Source of the DNA: Candidatus Saccharimonadota bacterium
Lineage (GTDB): Bacteria > Patescibacteriota > Saccharimonadia > Saccharimonadales > Saccharimonadaceae
Assembly: GCA_017406905.1 (NCBI GenBank)
Contig: JAFQXN010000006.1
Location: forward strand, 248,001 to 312,000
DNA: 64,000 nt
Direction: 5' to 3'
Under the pieces are notes generated by a model, which ran no database searches, was not told the DNA's origin, and saw nothing but the letters and a program-made list of their open reading frames with translations. Positions 17,493-23,353 of the stretch are shown piece by piece (position 1 is the first letter of the stretch; the number at the start of each line of letters is the position of its first letter). Position numbers and translations under genes: made by a program.

Positions 17493-18821
17493 TCACGACA
17501 AAGATTGTAAATAAAGCAAAAGTTCTTCTTTGATAAAATCGTCCGTCACCCTTTCAAGCTCCGCCAAAAACTTCGGCACTTGCTTCTCCAAACGATTCTT
17601 TCGATACTCTTCCCACTTTATCATCTCGCTCTCGCTCAAACTCCGCGGAAAATTCCTACCTTTATAGTGTAGTAGCAGCTCCGGCAATCTCGGATCATGA
17701 AAATCTGGATGAAAATCCGCCAGCTTATTTTCGTCTGCATTTCTCACCGCTGCAATTTTCACACGATCCACATCATCTACAAAACCTTCATACAATGCGC
17801 CCTCTGGTTCTGCCGCCGGCGGAAATTCCGGCCGCTCTTCTGCCTTACTTCGCATCATTTCTGCAAACTCCGGATGCTTTAATAATTCTTGCAGATTATC
17901 TTCCACCTGCTGCTTCGTCAAGCCAATCTTCTCCCAGCCATTATCTTTGTCGAGCACACCTAGTGGCGCCACCGCCGGGCACTTATTGTAGCATAATTCC
18001 TTCACAATCGGGAACGCAGAATCGATAAGCACCGTTTCTAACCCATGCCTCAAGTCATACACCAACACATTCCCATTCCTCCCGCTCGTCAAAGGAAATG
18101 CGACAGTTGTCTTATTATATTCTGAAGCATATCTCCCCGAAGCATAAACAAAAGGCTTCTTATCGTCTAAATTCACCAGCCGCTTCACTTCTTTCTTATC
18201 GCGCATCTTATATAAATATTCAAACAAATCCGGCTGCTTCTCGCGTATCAATTTCGCTACCGCAATCGTCGCATATACATCAGAAAGCGCATCGTGCGCG
18301 TGCTCGTGCGACACTCCGTTTAACTTAGTGATTAATTCTAAGCGATTCGTCGGCGTGCCATCTTCCCGAAATGGCCACTCAATTCCCTCCGGCCTGAGAG
18401 CCCGCGTTAACCTTACTACATCTAATATATCCCACCGGCTCCGCCCGTCTTTCCATTCCCACTCATAAGAGTCGTAAAAATTCCGCCACAACATCGCCCG
18501 CATAAACTCATCATCAAACCTCACCGTATTATACCCCACCGCCACCGTCTCCGGCACAAATACTGTCTCCATCACATGCTTGCAAAACTCCACCTCACTC
18601 ATCCCGTCCGCCAAGGTAGCCTGCGGCGTAATTCCCGTTACGCTAATTGCCTGTGGACTCGGCAACGTATCATCAGTCATTTTTACCAGTATATTCACCG
18701 GCTCGCCAATCGGCTCTAATTCTAGCGAAGTCCGCTGCCCTGCAAACTGCATAATCCTATCCGCCCGCGCATTTAACCCGCTCGTCTCTAAATCATAAAA
18801 GAAAAAAGTCTTACCACTCAT
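17493..18821 (-). CDS. sbcB: Exodeoxyribonuclease I (SbcB-like)
   Basis: 442 aa DEDDh exonuclease. ExoI motif is FFFYDLETSGLNARADRIMQF, with GYNTVRFDDEFMR (ExoII) and HEHAHDALSDVYATIA (ExoIII with the H and D). A C-terminal ExoI extension follows. SbcB digests single-stranded DNA 3' to 5' and trims 3' ends in recombination and repair. Slightly shorter than the E. coli enzyme (475 aa). Two Met-preceding TATAT elements are near, none as clear as at other genes. It converges with ldh. Confidence 0.92.
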   Translation of the reverse strand: MSGKTFFFYDLETSGLNARADRIMQFAGQRTSLELEPIGEPVNILVKMTDDTLPSPQAISVTGITPQATLADGMSEVEFCKHVMETVFVPETVAVGYNTVRFDDEFMRAMLWRNFYDSYEWEWKDGRSRWDILDVVRLTRALRPEGIEWPFREDGTPTNRLELITKLNGVSHEHAHDALSDVYATIAVAKLIREKQPDLFEYLYKMRDKKEVKRLVNLDDKKPFVYASGRYASEYNKTTVAFPLTSGRNGNVLVYDLRHGLETVLIDSAFPIVKELCYNKCPAVAPLGVLDKDNGWEKIGLTKQQVEDNLQELLKHPEFAEMMRSKAEERPEFPPAAEPEGALYEGFVDDVDRVKIAAVRNADENKLADFHPDFHDPRLPELLLHYKGRNFPRSLSESEMIKWEEYRKNRLEKQVPKFLAELERVTDDFIKEELLLYLQSLS

Positions 18822-19201
18822 GACTACCTATATATCATAGCAAAATATTTATTTCAACCCCTCACAGCATATAATATATATTATAAAATAAAGGTAGGGT
18901 GCCGCGGCGAATCGTTTTTTCGTAAGTTGCCGTACTGACCGTACCGAAATAGCTTATCGCTTCGCCCAGACGACACCCTTTCGGGAGACTGGACGGATTC
19001 ACCACTGATTCTCATACGAGAAAGGGTCAACAAGGTGGTGTTTGTCTATCTGATGGGAAAATCGCAAAGTCAGAGGTGCCGACCGCGACTAGCAAGATAT
19101 CCCGATAGAAGCCAAAGACCACCCAAAAACCTCCGACGCCTACGGACGTCGTAGGGAGCTAGCAATCCGACAAACCGAGTAGGAGAGCTATTTTTCCGGG
19201 C

Positions 19202-19436
19202 ACTTTGTTCGCGGAGGCAACACGAACTCTAATAATCTTTACAACGCAGGTTACAACGGCAACTACTGGTCTAGTACGGTCAACAGTAGCCAGAACGCGT
19301 ACAACCTGAACTTCAGGAGTGACAACATCAATCCCACGAACAACAACAATCGGAACAACGGAAGGTCCGTGCGCTGCCTCGTCCGCCAGCCTTAGTGCTC
19401 CAGTATAGTTTTCCTTTCCGGCTTTTTCCCGCAGTC
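19202..19436 (+). repeat. DGR template repeat (TR)
   Basis: 235 nt that align without gaps to 21882-21648 (minus strand). In the first about 165 nt there are 17 mismatches, all where this copy has A (11 to T, 4 to G, 2 to C); the remaining about 70 nt, including the stop codon and beyond, are identical. Read in the target frame it holds 12 AAC codons and one AAT at the variable positions. It lies on the strand opposite to the reverse transcriptase gene. Confidence 0.95.
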
Positions 19437-19448
19437 CCCCAACCCATT

Positions 19449-19491
19449 ACAAGACAAATGTCGCATAACTATAATGCGACATTTGTCTTGT
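19449..19491. terminator. Perfect 18-bp hairpin between TR and RT gene
   Basis: ACAAGACAAATGTCGCAT (19449-19466) and its exact complement (19474-19491) enclose a 7-nt loop. It begins 13 nt after the TR and ends 6 nt before the RT stop, at the point where the predicted template RNA and the RT mRNA converge. There is no T-run, so it could be a processing or 3'-end structure of the template RNA, or a bidirectional block to transcription. Confidence 0.65.
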
Positions 19492-19496
19492 AGCTA

Positions 19497-20660
19497 TTAT
19501 TTCAAATCCCAACCCAATCTTTGCGACAATTGTCGCATAAATTTATTCGCGTCGTAATGTTTCAAAAGCCCTAGATACGACGTAATGCTATCCAAATCTT
19601 TATACCCACAACAAAATTCTTCCGCCGCCCGATTAAATTTCGCCTGCAACCTATCCGACAAATAAATTTGATGCGGATAAATCCTTGCTCCCAAAAAATG
19701 CATCCCTCGCGACACCGGCTGCAAATAACGCTTTGTCGGATGCACCGTTAAGAGTAGCTCTTCTTTTAAGTATCGCTCAATTCGCACAATATCTCGCTTC
19801 GCCCGCTCATACTCTTCCTCTGGCACCATAATAAAGAAATCATCTACATAACGCCCATAATACTTATACTCTAGCTCATTTTTCACAAATCTGTCTAATT
19901 TATCAAGATATATATTAGATGATAGCTGCGAAGTAAAATTCCCAATCACCAGCCCTTGCCCCGGCGGCTGCGCAAACAAAGACTTCCTTAGCGGTAATAC
20001 ATCTGGATTCCAATTTTCTCTCAATCCTCGCTTCCAAGCCTTTTTCACCGGATCATCAAAAATCACTTTCTGCCACAAAAAATCACAAGTCCGATACAGC
20101 CGATATGCCGCCGTATCGTCCTTGTATTTCTCAAATTGCTTATCCAGCCCCCATCGCACTCGCTCATATAATTTATTCCTCGGCAACGACATAAAATACC
20201 CACTAATATCTAACTGTATCACATACGCTTTTCTCTCACCGTTTCGCGACACTTGTCTCATCATGGTCTGCGCCCGTTTTATCCCAAACAGCGTGCCCTT
20301 TCCCTTCCGACAACTATAGGAATCATAAATCAATCGCCTATCCCACCAACCCGCTTGCATTTCTGAAAGAAAATGATGCACCACTCTATCGATAAATGGC
20401 GCCGCAAAAATCTCTCGCACCATCGGCTCAAAAATCACAAAAGCCACCGAAGCCCCTGGCTCATAATATCCCTCCACAATCGACCGCTCCAGACGCAACA
20501 AATTTTCCGCCCATTTCAACTCAAACTTATGCTCATCATAAGTCTTCAACTTTCCTTTTCGCGCTTCCTTAAAAGCCTTCACCAGCTTCAATATCAGCCA
20601 CGGCTCAAACCCCACCCGTTTGATTATCCGCACCTCTTCATCAATATCAACTGGCGTCAC
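19497..20660 (-). CDS. DGR reverse transcriptase
   Basis: 387 aa. The catalytic box is YVDD in YGRYVDDFFIMV. The preceding motif PPGQGLVIGNFTSQ has IGxxxSQ, the form typical of DGR enzymes where group II intron RTs have QGxxxSP. Other RT blocks include IQLDISGYFMSL (first Asp) and FLGARIYPHQ (motif after the palm). There is no maturase or endonuclease domain. It would copy the template RNA into adenine-mutagenised cDNA. Start is GTG 20660, 14 nt after the accessory gene stop, with AGGAAAG upstream. It is the last gene of the target-accessory-RT minus-strand series. Confidence 0.95.
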   Translation of the reverse strand: MTPVDIDEEVRIIKRVGFEPWLILKLVKAFKEARKGKLKTYDEHKFELKWAENLLRLERSIVEGYYEPGASVAFVIFEPMVREIFAAPFIDRVVHHFLSEMQAGWWDRRLIYDSYSCRKGKGTLFGIKRAQTMMRQVSRNGERKAYVIQLDISGYFMSLPRNKLYERVRWGLDKQFEKYKDDTAAYRLYRTCDFLWQKVIFDDPVKKAWKRGLRENWNPDVLPLRKSLFAQPPGQGLVIGNFTSQLSSNIYLDKLDRFVKNELEYKYYGRYVDDFFIMVPEEEYERAKRDIVRIERYLKEELLLTVHPTKRYLQPVSRGMHFLGARIYPHQIYLSDRLQAKFNRAAEEFCCGYKDLDSITSYLGLLKHYDANKFMRQLSQRLGWDLK

Positions 20661-20674
20661 TTTTGGTCTCTTTC

Positions 20675-21523
20675 CTAATCCTCAAATTCCTCTTCGTCAA
20701 ACCTATCAAGCCCTTTAGCCCCCATCCGCTTCATTTTTTCTTCCTCGCGCTTCTCTGCCACTTTTATCGCATTCTCAAACTTCTTCTTCATCCTGAGCAA
20801 AGTCTTTACTATCCCCACGCAAGTTTCGTAGCTCCACAGCTTCACCTCACTCAGAAGCTCTATTTCATACAATAGTTCATTTGTCTCATCCAGGAATAAT
20901 TGCCACGTCACATCATCAAACGTAGACTCCTTCCCGTCACACATACGATAATACCTTAGTATCATCCCATCAATCATTTCCACAATCCTAAAACCATTGG
21001 TCTGCCCAGAAATCCTATCCAGATTAGACGAGCACAACTTATGTAACCTTGCTGACACTTCCACCATATCGTGATGCAAAGTCGGATCGCCATAGTTTAT
21101 CTTTACCAACCCCAAATTCTCTTCTCGCCGGCTGAATTCTTTCGCTTTCAGCCAAGCCAAATCTTCTTTCTTTAGCTTTACATCCAACGTGAAAATATGA
21201 CAATAATTCTTTATCGCATGTCCCTTGAGATACCCTGCATTTTGAATACGTTTTTTTACGGCCTCCGGGCTCCTGACCCGGATTCGCCCTATTTCATAGG
21301 GCGAATAGAAACTATCTGTATCCGGCCCAAAATTCACCTTCAACTTCAACGTTTCACACACGCGATAGTAGTAGATGAGCGCAGAATTTTCTGCAATTTC
21401 GTACCATCCATTGTTGCCTCCACAGGGTATCATTATTATTTTATCACAATTTTCTTCTTCAAGCACCTTTAATTTTTTCTTGAATACTTTATATTTTTCT
21501 TTGGAGATATCAGGATACTCCAT
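20675..21523 (-). CDS. DGR accessory protein, possible MutS-I-like plus Avd-like fusion
   Basis: 282 aa. The N-terminal about 130 residues (core KIIMIPCGGNNGWYEIAE ... SPEAVKKRIQNAGYLKGHA) vaguely recall the mismatch-binding domain I of MutS. The region about 150-265 is all-helical with basic and acidic faces, as in Avd, the four-helix accessory protein that binds DGR RTs and template RNA. The last about 30 residues are charged. Both resemblances are by eye only. Position between target and RT, with an AAAGGA ribosome site before ATG 21523, makes an accessory role likely whatever the fold. I recall MutS-like accessory proteins from DGR surveys but cannot check this here. Confidence 0.6.
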   Translation of the reverse strand: MEYPDISKEKYKVFKKKLKVLEEENCDKIIMIPCGGNNGWYEIAENSALIYYYRVCETLKLKVNFGPDTDSFYSPYEIGRIRVRSPEAVKKRIQNAGYLKGHAIKNYCHIFTLDVKLKKEDLAWLKAKEFSRREENLGLVKINYGDPTLHHDMVEVSARLHKLCSSNLDRISGQTNGFRIVEMIDGMILRYYRMCDGKESTFDDVTWQLFLDETNELLYEIELLSEVKLWSYETCVGIVKTLLRMKKKFENAIKVAEKREEEKMKRMGAKGLDRFDEEEFED

Positions 21524-21647
21524 ATTTGTCCTTTCTGCCCAACCCTTTTTTCTATTTCACGTGTTCTGTCAGTTTCAAGCGAGGGTATTATATTTTTCTA
21601 TCTTCTGGCTCCAGCTTACCTTTTCAACTCAGTACTACGTTTCGGGA

Positions 21648-21882
21648 GACTGCGGGAAAAAGCCGGAAAGGAAAACTATACTGGAGCACTAAGGCTGGCG
21701 GACGAGGCAGCGCACGGACCTTCCGAGGTTCCGATTGACGTAGTTCGTGGGATAGATGCCGTCACTCCTGAAGTACAGGTAGTACGCGTCCTGGCTACTG
21801 TAGACCGTACTAGACCAGTAGAGGCCGTAGTAACCTGCGTAGTAAAGATTATTAGAGTACGTGTTGCCTCCGCGAACAAAGT
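21648..21882 (-). repeat. DGR variable repeat (VR) at the 3' end of the target gene
   Basis: Aligns to the TR with 17 A-specific differences affecting 13 codons. The current residues at these positions are Tyr (8), Leu (2), Asp, Gly and Val, versus Asn in the template. The identity continues 41 nt past the target TAG stop (21691-21689) to GCAGTC, then diverges. The constant 3' part is the likely equivalent of the IMH (initiation of mutagenic homing) sequence. Confidence 0.95.
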
Positions 21883-23353
21883 AAAGCGGCGCAGCCATTA
21901 ACTTCTTATCACGCTCAGAGCCAGATGTCACATAAGCACTGTACGCGGTCATTAGATTATAGAAATCGTTCTTGCCGGTATTAGTCGCGGCAATCGTCGG
22001 GAGTTTCCAATTCGCCGGGCAAATAGAGTTCTGCGGGCTCGCCGAAGTATCTGCATAAGTAGAATCTACATATGAGCTAGCATCGTTAATCGCCACCGAA
22101 GCCGGCCAAGCGTAGTAATTCCCCACGTGACCATGCGCGCCATTCCCTGCATACTGTGTTTGCGAGAAGTAATTTGCGTAGTTGTGTGTCCTTGCCATGT
22201 AATTACATAAGTGACCATCTGCCTCCGTGTAGCAGTTAGACGAGTAGAACCAATTCGGCGTCTCGTACCAATAGCCCGGATCCATGGAGTATGGCTGATT
22301 ATAAGCATTGGTGTTATTCCACCCGCTAATCGTACCACTGGTAGCATTGATAGTAGAGCGTGACGGTGTCCACTGAATCTCTTCCCCACTTGCCGTACAG
22401 TTCGTAGTGGTATCCGGATTAGAACAAGCATAACCCTTAGTAGTGAGATACCCGCCCGCGTTGAACTGCACCAAGTCTGTGTCGGCCGAAGTGTATGTCA
22501 CACCACTATCAATATTTAGGTCTAAGTTCTGTGTCATCCAGCAATTACCATCTGCCAGCTTCGCTATCCAATATACCTTGTTATCACGCGAATCTATCAC
22601 CTGCAGCTCAGATGGCACCAACGTCACCGCATTACAGATGCTAGCGGTCATATCTTGCATCCGGAAGTAGCCATTTACCTGCACTGCCCCTGCAGAAAGG
22701 TAAGCATCATATAGCGAAACCGGTGTAGGATTCGTCACCACCTCGAAATTAATCACATTACTGTAAGTACCAGAAGCCTGTGAATTATCTGCCTTTGCCG
22801 CAATCTTAAACTGTACCGGATCGGCATTTGAATCACTAGTAGTAGCAATCTGCCGCGCTGTCTCGGTATATTTCGGGAGGCCAGAATATGTAGACCACGC
22901 CGCCGAAGACGACGTACGTGAAGCATAACCCCAAGTGTTAGTACTAGCACTCACCATAGTATCTAACGAATCTGTCGTAGCTAGGCTGGTGAATTTATTA
23001 GTCATATTAGTATGCACTAAATCATTCGCCTCATAATTAGCCGAGCCAGGATAGCTAGTGCTATTACCTACCGAAGCAAACACCGTATAACCATAAGTAC
23101 TATTCGTATCTACATTTATATTTACGATATTACTATCCGCGTACATACCAGCAGAAAGGTCTGGAATAATTAAATCTGCCGAGGAGATATTTACCGAAAG
23201 CGTAGAACCAAAGGTGAAGTTCATCCCTACGTCACTCTGATAAGCTAAGGCGCCAGCCTTCTCGCTATGCAAAAAACCCGCAGCGCCCACTACGGCACCT
23301 GCGGACAAAGTTAACAATAATAAACCTGTAGAAATTTTCGTACGCCTTTTCAT
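21689..23353 (-). CDS. Secreted DGR target protein with FISUMP/C-type-lectin-like C-terminus
   Basis: 554 aa from MKRRTKIST. ATG 23353 lies 6 nt after TATAAT (23365-23360), so the longer reading frame upstream is not used. A signal peptide or anchor covers about 1-35. Residues about 40-215 are a Ser/Thr-rich beta domain (QSDVGMNFTFGSTLSVNIS). The C-terminal half (about 250-554) matches the FISUMP pattern (VYWIAKLADGNCWMTQNLDL, later YWSSTV, SVRCLVRQ), a C-type-lectin-like fold used by DGR targets to display variable residues. The VR makes up the last about 64 codons. Likely a surface receptor or adhesin whose binding face is diversified; for a host-attached bacterium this suggests host or phage interaction, but the ligand is unknown. 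Confidence 0.9.
   Translation of the reverse strand: MKRRTKISTGLLLLTLSAGAVVGAAGFLHSEKAGALAYQSDVGMNFTFGSTLSVNISSADLIIPDLSAGMYADSNIVNINVDTNSTYGYTVFASVGNSTSYPGSANYEANDLVHTNMTNKFTSLATTDSLDTMVSASTNTWGYASRTSSSAAWSTYSGLPKYTETARQIATTSDSNADPVQFKIAAKADNSQASGTYSNVINFEVVTNPTPVSLYDAYLSAGAVQVNGYFRMQDMTASICNAVTLVPSELQVIDSRDNKVYWIAKLADGNCWMTQNLDLNIDSGVTYTSADTDLVQFNAGGYLTTKGYACSNPDTTTNCTASGEEIQWTPSRSTINATSGTISGWNNTNAYNQPYSMDPGYWYETPNWFYSSNCYTEADGHLCNYMARTHNYANYFSQTQYAGNGAHGHVGNYYAWPASVAINDASSYVDSTYADTSASPQNSICPANWKLPTIAATNTGKNDFYNLMTAYSAYVTSGSERDKKLMAAPLYFVRGGNTYSNNLYYAGYYGLYWSSTVYSSQDAYYLYFRSDGIYPTNYVNRNLGRSVRCLVRQP

Follow-up and report, generated by a model that had tools for sequence, protein, structure and literature searches.

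The 64,000-nt stretch of DNA analyzed here (the window) carries a complete diversity-generating retroelement (DGR) in the genome of a tiny gut bacterium of the Saccharibacteria, composed of a reverse transcriptase (RT), an accessory protein with a modelled Avd fold, and a FISUMP-type target protein. Our main reading, to which we assign a probability of roughly 0.78, is that this DGR uses a separate template RNA, made up of a leader, the template repeat (TR), and a terminator, and that a short guide in the leader would select the target by pairing with the variable repeat (VR), while mismatches in TR would spare the donor.

Composition of the retroelement and its template RNA

Pairwise alignment in the window of TR (19202..19436, plus strand) with VR (21648..21882, minus strand) gave 235 ungapped nucleotides with 17 mismatches, all 17 at an A of the template (from TR to VR, 11 A to T, 4 A to G, and 2 A to C), and zero non-A drift; BLAST extended the repeat to 239 nt. 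TR consists for 27% of A, and the probability that 17 of 17 mismatches fall on A by chance is ~2.5e-10. Thirteen codons, all AAC or AAT (Asn) in TR, are changed into codons for Y, L, D, G, or V in VR, with 0 stops, and the 3' part of the repeats, stop codon included, is identical. An earlier note on this DNA had described the ungapped A-only pair, the 13 changed codons near the C-terminus of the variable protein, and the identical 3' part, all of which was reproduced exactly by our realignment and recount. An A-only TR/VR signature points to mutagenic homing, which leaves such a trace, and an A-biased signature is common to 70 related DGR loci, nearly all from one genus, which supports the note's further claim of a complete DGR with the hallmark of this process.

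VR spans codon 491 to the stop of the variable protein gene (21689..23353, minus strand), an open reading frame coding for a secreted protein with a putative FISUMP-type C-terminal domain, a candidate for the C-type-lectin-like kind of variable protein typical of DGRs. The earlier description of a secreted FISUMP-type protein agrees with a match to TIGR02145 (FISUMP; E=1e-9, 39.2 bits) that stays slightly below the cut-off of 41.65. The RT (387 aa; 19497..20660, minus strand) contains the motifs VIGNFTSQ and YVDD, in agreement with the YVDD and IGxxxSQ reported before. Its sole strong match among solved structures is the RT of the BPP-1 DGR (8ub7, E=4e-30), and its PHROG hit is phrog_1423 (E=3e-73), a family also named for the RTs of other DGR-carrying phages; a search of viral contigs for the RT of the window found none. 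The accessory gene, which had been said to complete the set, is present at 20675..21523 (minus strand), and a structure model of its product predicts an N-terminal alpha/beta domain followed by a C-terminal four-helix bundle (142-262) with the Avd fold. Residues 147-261 of this model matched Avd (4dwl) with a Z of 13.1 and an rmsd of 1.9 over 109 residues, and the C-terminal half matched the BPP-1 RNP chains 8ub7/8ub8 with a Z of ~12.7; helical bundles easily reach high Z values, nevertheless the Avd/S23 family tops the structure list. Pfam readings of the accessory protein (Radical_SAM and others) were sub-threshold only, and were set aside for the modelled Avd fold. The top three structure matches of the modelled N-terminal half were all MutS, with a Z of only 5.0-4.7 and without a Pfam match, and the accessory protein possibly fuses a MutS domain I-like half to its Avd-like half, which would make it a MutS-like (MSL) accessory. 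The conserved aromatic-x-Glu of MutS was also considered and rejected, as the Glu is Lys in most relatives. Altogether, the locus holds a DGR-type RT, an A-specific TR/VR pair, an Avd-type accessory protein, and an IMH/IMH*-like element.

The earlier note had rightly pointed to the arrangement of the locus as worth attention, but the leader RNA and the target complementarity had gone unseen there. TR lies directly behind the RT gene on the opposite strand, and both converge on a terminator (19447..19493, plus strand), a 20-bp hairpin with a T-rich tail. Upstream of TR lies a non-coding leader of ~320 nt (18882..19201, plus strand), containing a structured domain and the guide, with a weak promoter-like match at 18861-18889. 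Folding z-scores were -4.0 for leader, TR, and terminator together and -2.45 for the leader alone, and an Rfam search of the leader gave zero matches. For comparison, ~80 related loci were fetched, nearly all from one genus, of which 70 have a TR/VR pair; those relatives that have a name belong to Candidatus Saccharibacteria and come from public MAGs, at least three of which are from sheep and goat gut. TR is antiparallel to the RT gene in 67 of these 70 loci, and the gap between RT and TR has a median of 72 nt. With TR antiparallel in the window and in most of its relatives, the template RNA is here probably a separate, non-coding transcript with a leader of ~320 nt. In two relatives (L049 and L113), TR is found elsewhere than directly behind the RT gene; there, TR and VR may have changed places or may be those of a neighbouring DGR. 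The DGR adjoins an Exodeoxyribonuclease I gene (17493-18821). ExoI inhibits homing of the BPP-1 DGR in E. coli (PMC12875486). The two are neighbours in only 2 of the 80 relatives, and we consider their proximity a coincidence.

Guide-target complementarity at the repeat border

A complement search revealed a 13-nt guide in the leader, TTTCGGGAGACTG (18979..18991, plus strand), which is the exact reverse complement of the coding strand at the 3' border of VR. Its target, CAGTCTCCCGAAA (21640..21652, minus strand), is an IMH-like element outside the coding sequence, and differs from its IMH*-like counterpart in TR, CAGTCCCCCAACC (19432..19444, plus strand; from the VR/TR comparison), so that the pairing is perfect over 13 nt with the VR-border DNA and mismatched with TR. 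The target starts 5 nt before the end of the uninterrupted VR/TR identity and then enters VR-specific DNA. A second genomic match to the guide (C8:36908, one mismatch) has no VR and was taken as chance.

Complements were scored at this fixed register in 69 loci, using 4346 swapped leader-target pairs as null. Complements of at least 8 nt were present in 41 of the 69 loci (2.9 expected), of at least 10 nt in 19 (0.25 expected), and of at least 13 nt in 7, compared to 0 in the 4346 swapped pairs. As far as sequences can tell, guide-target pairing is hereby shown statistically. Guide and target co-vary between related loci while the register remains constant, and three further Saccharibacteria loci from another collection have guides of 12, 13, and 12 nt. 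As a safeguard against circularity, guides were also picked with all VR/TR-differing positions masked; at those positions, these guides then agreed with VR in 38 cases, with TR in 1, and with neither in 5, versus 32, 25, and 44 for swapped leaders. In about one-third of the relatives, the same search gave no clear guide of at least 7-8 nt, and a motif built on the 3' context of the guide was too weak to locate guides alone. In one leader (L100), 16 nt at position -304, GGCGACCGCGGGGAGG, are complementary to DNA that lies 28 nt past the end of VR, a site out of the usual register.

The small source genome has three DGRs, including that of the window. The two others (L040 and L041; G000:C9:199775-200923 and G000:C7:1433-2494) both have an antiparallel TR and their own guides, of 12 and 10 nt. 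The guide of the window matches 13 nt of its own VR border, and 6 and 6 nt at the two co-resident DGRs. Over all genomes with several DGRs, the mean was 8.5 nt for own guide-target pairs versus 6.2 nt for cross pairs. Judged by these matches, the guides of co-resident DGRs are non-interchangeable.

When the loci were aligned on the target start and non-A differences between VR and TR were counted, 5 were found at 1462 positions in the 40 nt before the target versus 40 at 277 positions in its first 8 nt. Over 60 nt upstream, the count was 11 of 2096, and the peak, 26 of 50, was at target nucleotides 2-3; past these, VR and TR agree for a few bases and then diverge. This abrupt difference places the border of sequence transfer at the 3' end of the guide. 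The TR differences at nucleotides 2-3 look selected, because they disrupt guide pairing beside the presumed start of the cDNA. Comparison of the loci demonstrates that VR is told from TR, that the register at the transfer border is fixed, that co-resident DGRs are specific, and that BPP-1-like phages follow the same rule. A hairpin with a stem of at least 7 bp follows VR in 25 of 69 relatives, versus 1.8% in shuffles. Perfect strong hairpins directly 3' of the guide target occur in, among others, L056, L058, L059, L074, L079, L090, and L109; a hairpin or cruciform was also looked for behind VR in the window, and none was found.

In relatives, a helix (P1) abuts the 3' end of the guide and encloses further hairpins. 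Its covariation is based on one group, in which 6 of 7 pairs show double-sided changes and 56 of 63 cells are paired; RNAalifold, run on four leader groups, found clear covariation for P1 of one group only, the alignments of the other groups being poor. By analogy, we assign to P1 in the window the putative strands CGGATT (18994..18999, plus strand), beginning 3 nt after the guide, and AATCCG (19164..19169, plus strand), and to a P2 hairpin CACCAC (19000..19005) and its partner GTGGTG (19035-19040, plus strand), comparable to the CAC-type hairpins in relatives.

Proposed mechanism and alternative readings

In the mechanism that we propose, the template RNA, convergent with the RT gene, would be transcribed separately as a single molecule, leader first, then TR, then terminator, after which RT and the Avd-like accessory protein would copy TR and make errors opposite its A residues. 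At the 3' border of VR, the 13-nt guide would pair with the coding strand directly 3' of the stretch that takes up the 5' end of the cDNA, and, since both are antisense to the VR coding strand and adjoin each other, guide and cDNA would lie end to end on the same strand. The guide of the ribonucleoprotein would bind the coding strand probably when this is single-stranded at replication, with the cDNA pairing upstream afterwards, and it may also donate the primer nucleotide, as in BPP-1. We assume that this pairing occurs on DNA and that homing requires it. As the guide pairs with VR and mismatches TR, RNA-DNA pairing would select VR; TR DNA and RNA would be spared because the mismatches stand at the start of the pairing, and the same mismatches would give the transfer its direction.

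A broader proposal, which we hold to be slightly better than an even bet, is that a short, exchangeable RNA guide of 8-15 nt chooses the target of a DGR and serves as primer strand too, that this guide is continuous with the cDNA in a single antisense strand on the target, and that guide-target pairs diversify, thereby keeping the DGRs of one cell orthogonal. If true, a DGR should accept a new target once its guide and the matching DNA are altered in concert. Published work describes the mechanism of DGR homing as incompletely understood or undefined (PMC8144416, PMC12875486). With pairing to VR and mismatches to TR, a guide would account at the same time for the choice of target, the direction of transfer, and the protection of the donor, and suggests an answer to how DGRs find their target. 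The model also predicts the site of cDNA initiation.

Several other readings have to be weighed. That the DGR is a relic, no longer homing in the source strain, seems quite improbable: VR and TR could be frozen, yet RT, accessory protein, guide, target, and border are all intact, and 235 nt have remained without non-A drift. We give hardly any credence to the view that this is an ordinary CPR DGR whose gene order is odd and whose complementarity arose by chance or from an inverted copy that decayed. Any 400-nt leader does yield matches of 7-8 nt in 4-16% of swapped pairs, but both the swapped-pair null and the masked test speak against chance, as does the orthogonality of guides within genomes. 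The leader could also be an antisense regulator of the 3' end of the variable protein mRNA, without a role in homing. Antisense RNAs are generally known to pair with 3' ends, and the target in the window lies just downstream of the stop codon of the variable protein. Regulation of this kind is nevertheless very unlikely, considering that the register is fixed to the VR/TR homology border in many loci and families and VR is told from TR, and that BPP-1 has the same pairing in the coding end of mtd, tied to priming.

A further reading is that the segment is only a priming strand that pairs with the 3' end of TR in the RNA, so that the complementarity to VR is written through a copied RNA-cDNA chimera instead of being read. 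TR keeps partial complementarity, and the corresponding BPP-1 segment ends at the priming adenine (A56), both in accordance with this idea. In that case, TR should fit the segment best, yet it is mismatched at target nucleotides 2-3. Moreover, work on Bordetella found that a 21-bp VR element differing from TR at five positions sets the direction of transfer (PMC3240598), by a mechanism not given; such an element is therefore read. We consider a purely priming role unlikely, and prefer a guide that selects VR.

Comparison with BPP-1 and other known systems

The BPP-1 DGR (mtd, avd, TR, brt) resembles that of the window in its adenine mutagenesis, Avd fold (modelled for the window), related RT, and IMH/IMH*-like 3' border. 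It also has a 9-nt spacer segment, Sp48-56 AGGTGGTCA, that is perfectly complementary to TGACCACCT at the 3' end of VR and not to TR, which has TGCCCATCA, and that adjoins the priming site. The last base of this segment is number 56 of the spacer, the known priming adenine (A56), and the cDNA starts opposite TR G117, a single base ahead of the paired stretch. In BPP-1, priming within IMH* has been reported to start from an adenine inside the spacer, and homing to favour the lagging-strand template (PMC12875486). Among BPP-1-like viral loci, GTGGTCA is present in the spacer of 45 out of 50 and TGACCAC in the VR of 40, with TR differing in 40/40. Guide and target are invariant in this group, hence do not co-vary, whereas in the group of the window they change together between loci. 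In 18 other phage DGRs, we found no convincing guide match of at least 8 nt, and because these and about one-third of the relatives gave none, a guide is either not universal or not detectable everywhere.

In BPP-1, the spacer on the 3' side of TR holds the guide, and avd and brt run co-linear with TR; in the window, the order is permuted, with guide and scaffold on the 5' side of TR, which is antiparallel to the RT gene and has its own terminator. The hairpin/cruciform behind VR, which is important for homing in BPP-1 and not required of DGRs generally, is absent from the window. In the DGR literature searched, we found no mention of an antiparallel TR, an upstream guide, or guide-target co-variation, and some of it may already be described for BPP-1.

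In group II intron retrohoming, the RNA of the retroelement chooses its site by EBS-IBS pairing with a target DNA strand. The window would be similar in that a segment of retroelement RNA pairs with a strand of the target DNA; unlike these introns, it involves neither intron nor splicing, and the guide merely abuts the copied repeat.

The DGRs of Patescibacteria (CPR), RT clade 2 of Roux et al. 2021 (PMC8144416), are like that of the window with respect to host group, several DGRs per genome, and short upstream guides. In other families of this phylum, these putative guides have the form ACTNC|TTG, with 6-10 nt of pairing with VR, and are situated 100-160 nt before TR (L226, L228, L229, L237, L239, L243, L244, and L248). 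Unlike in the window, TR is co-linear with the RT gene in most of the loci fetched from these families, as it is in BPP-1.
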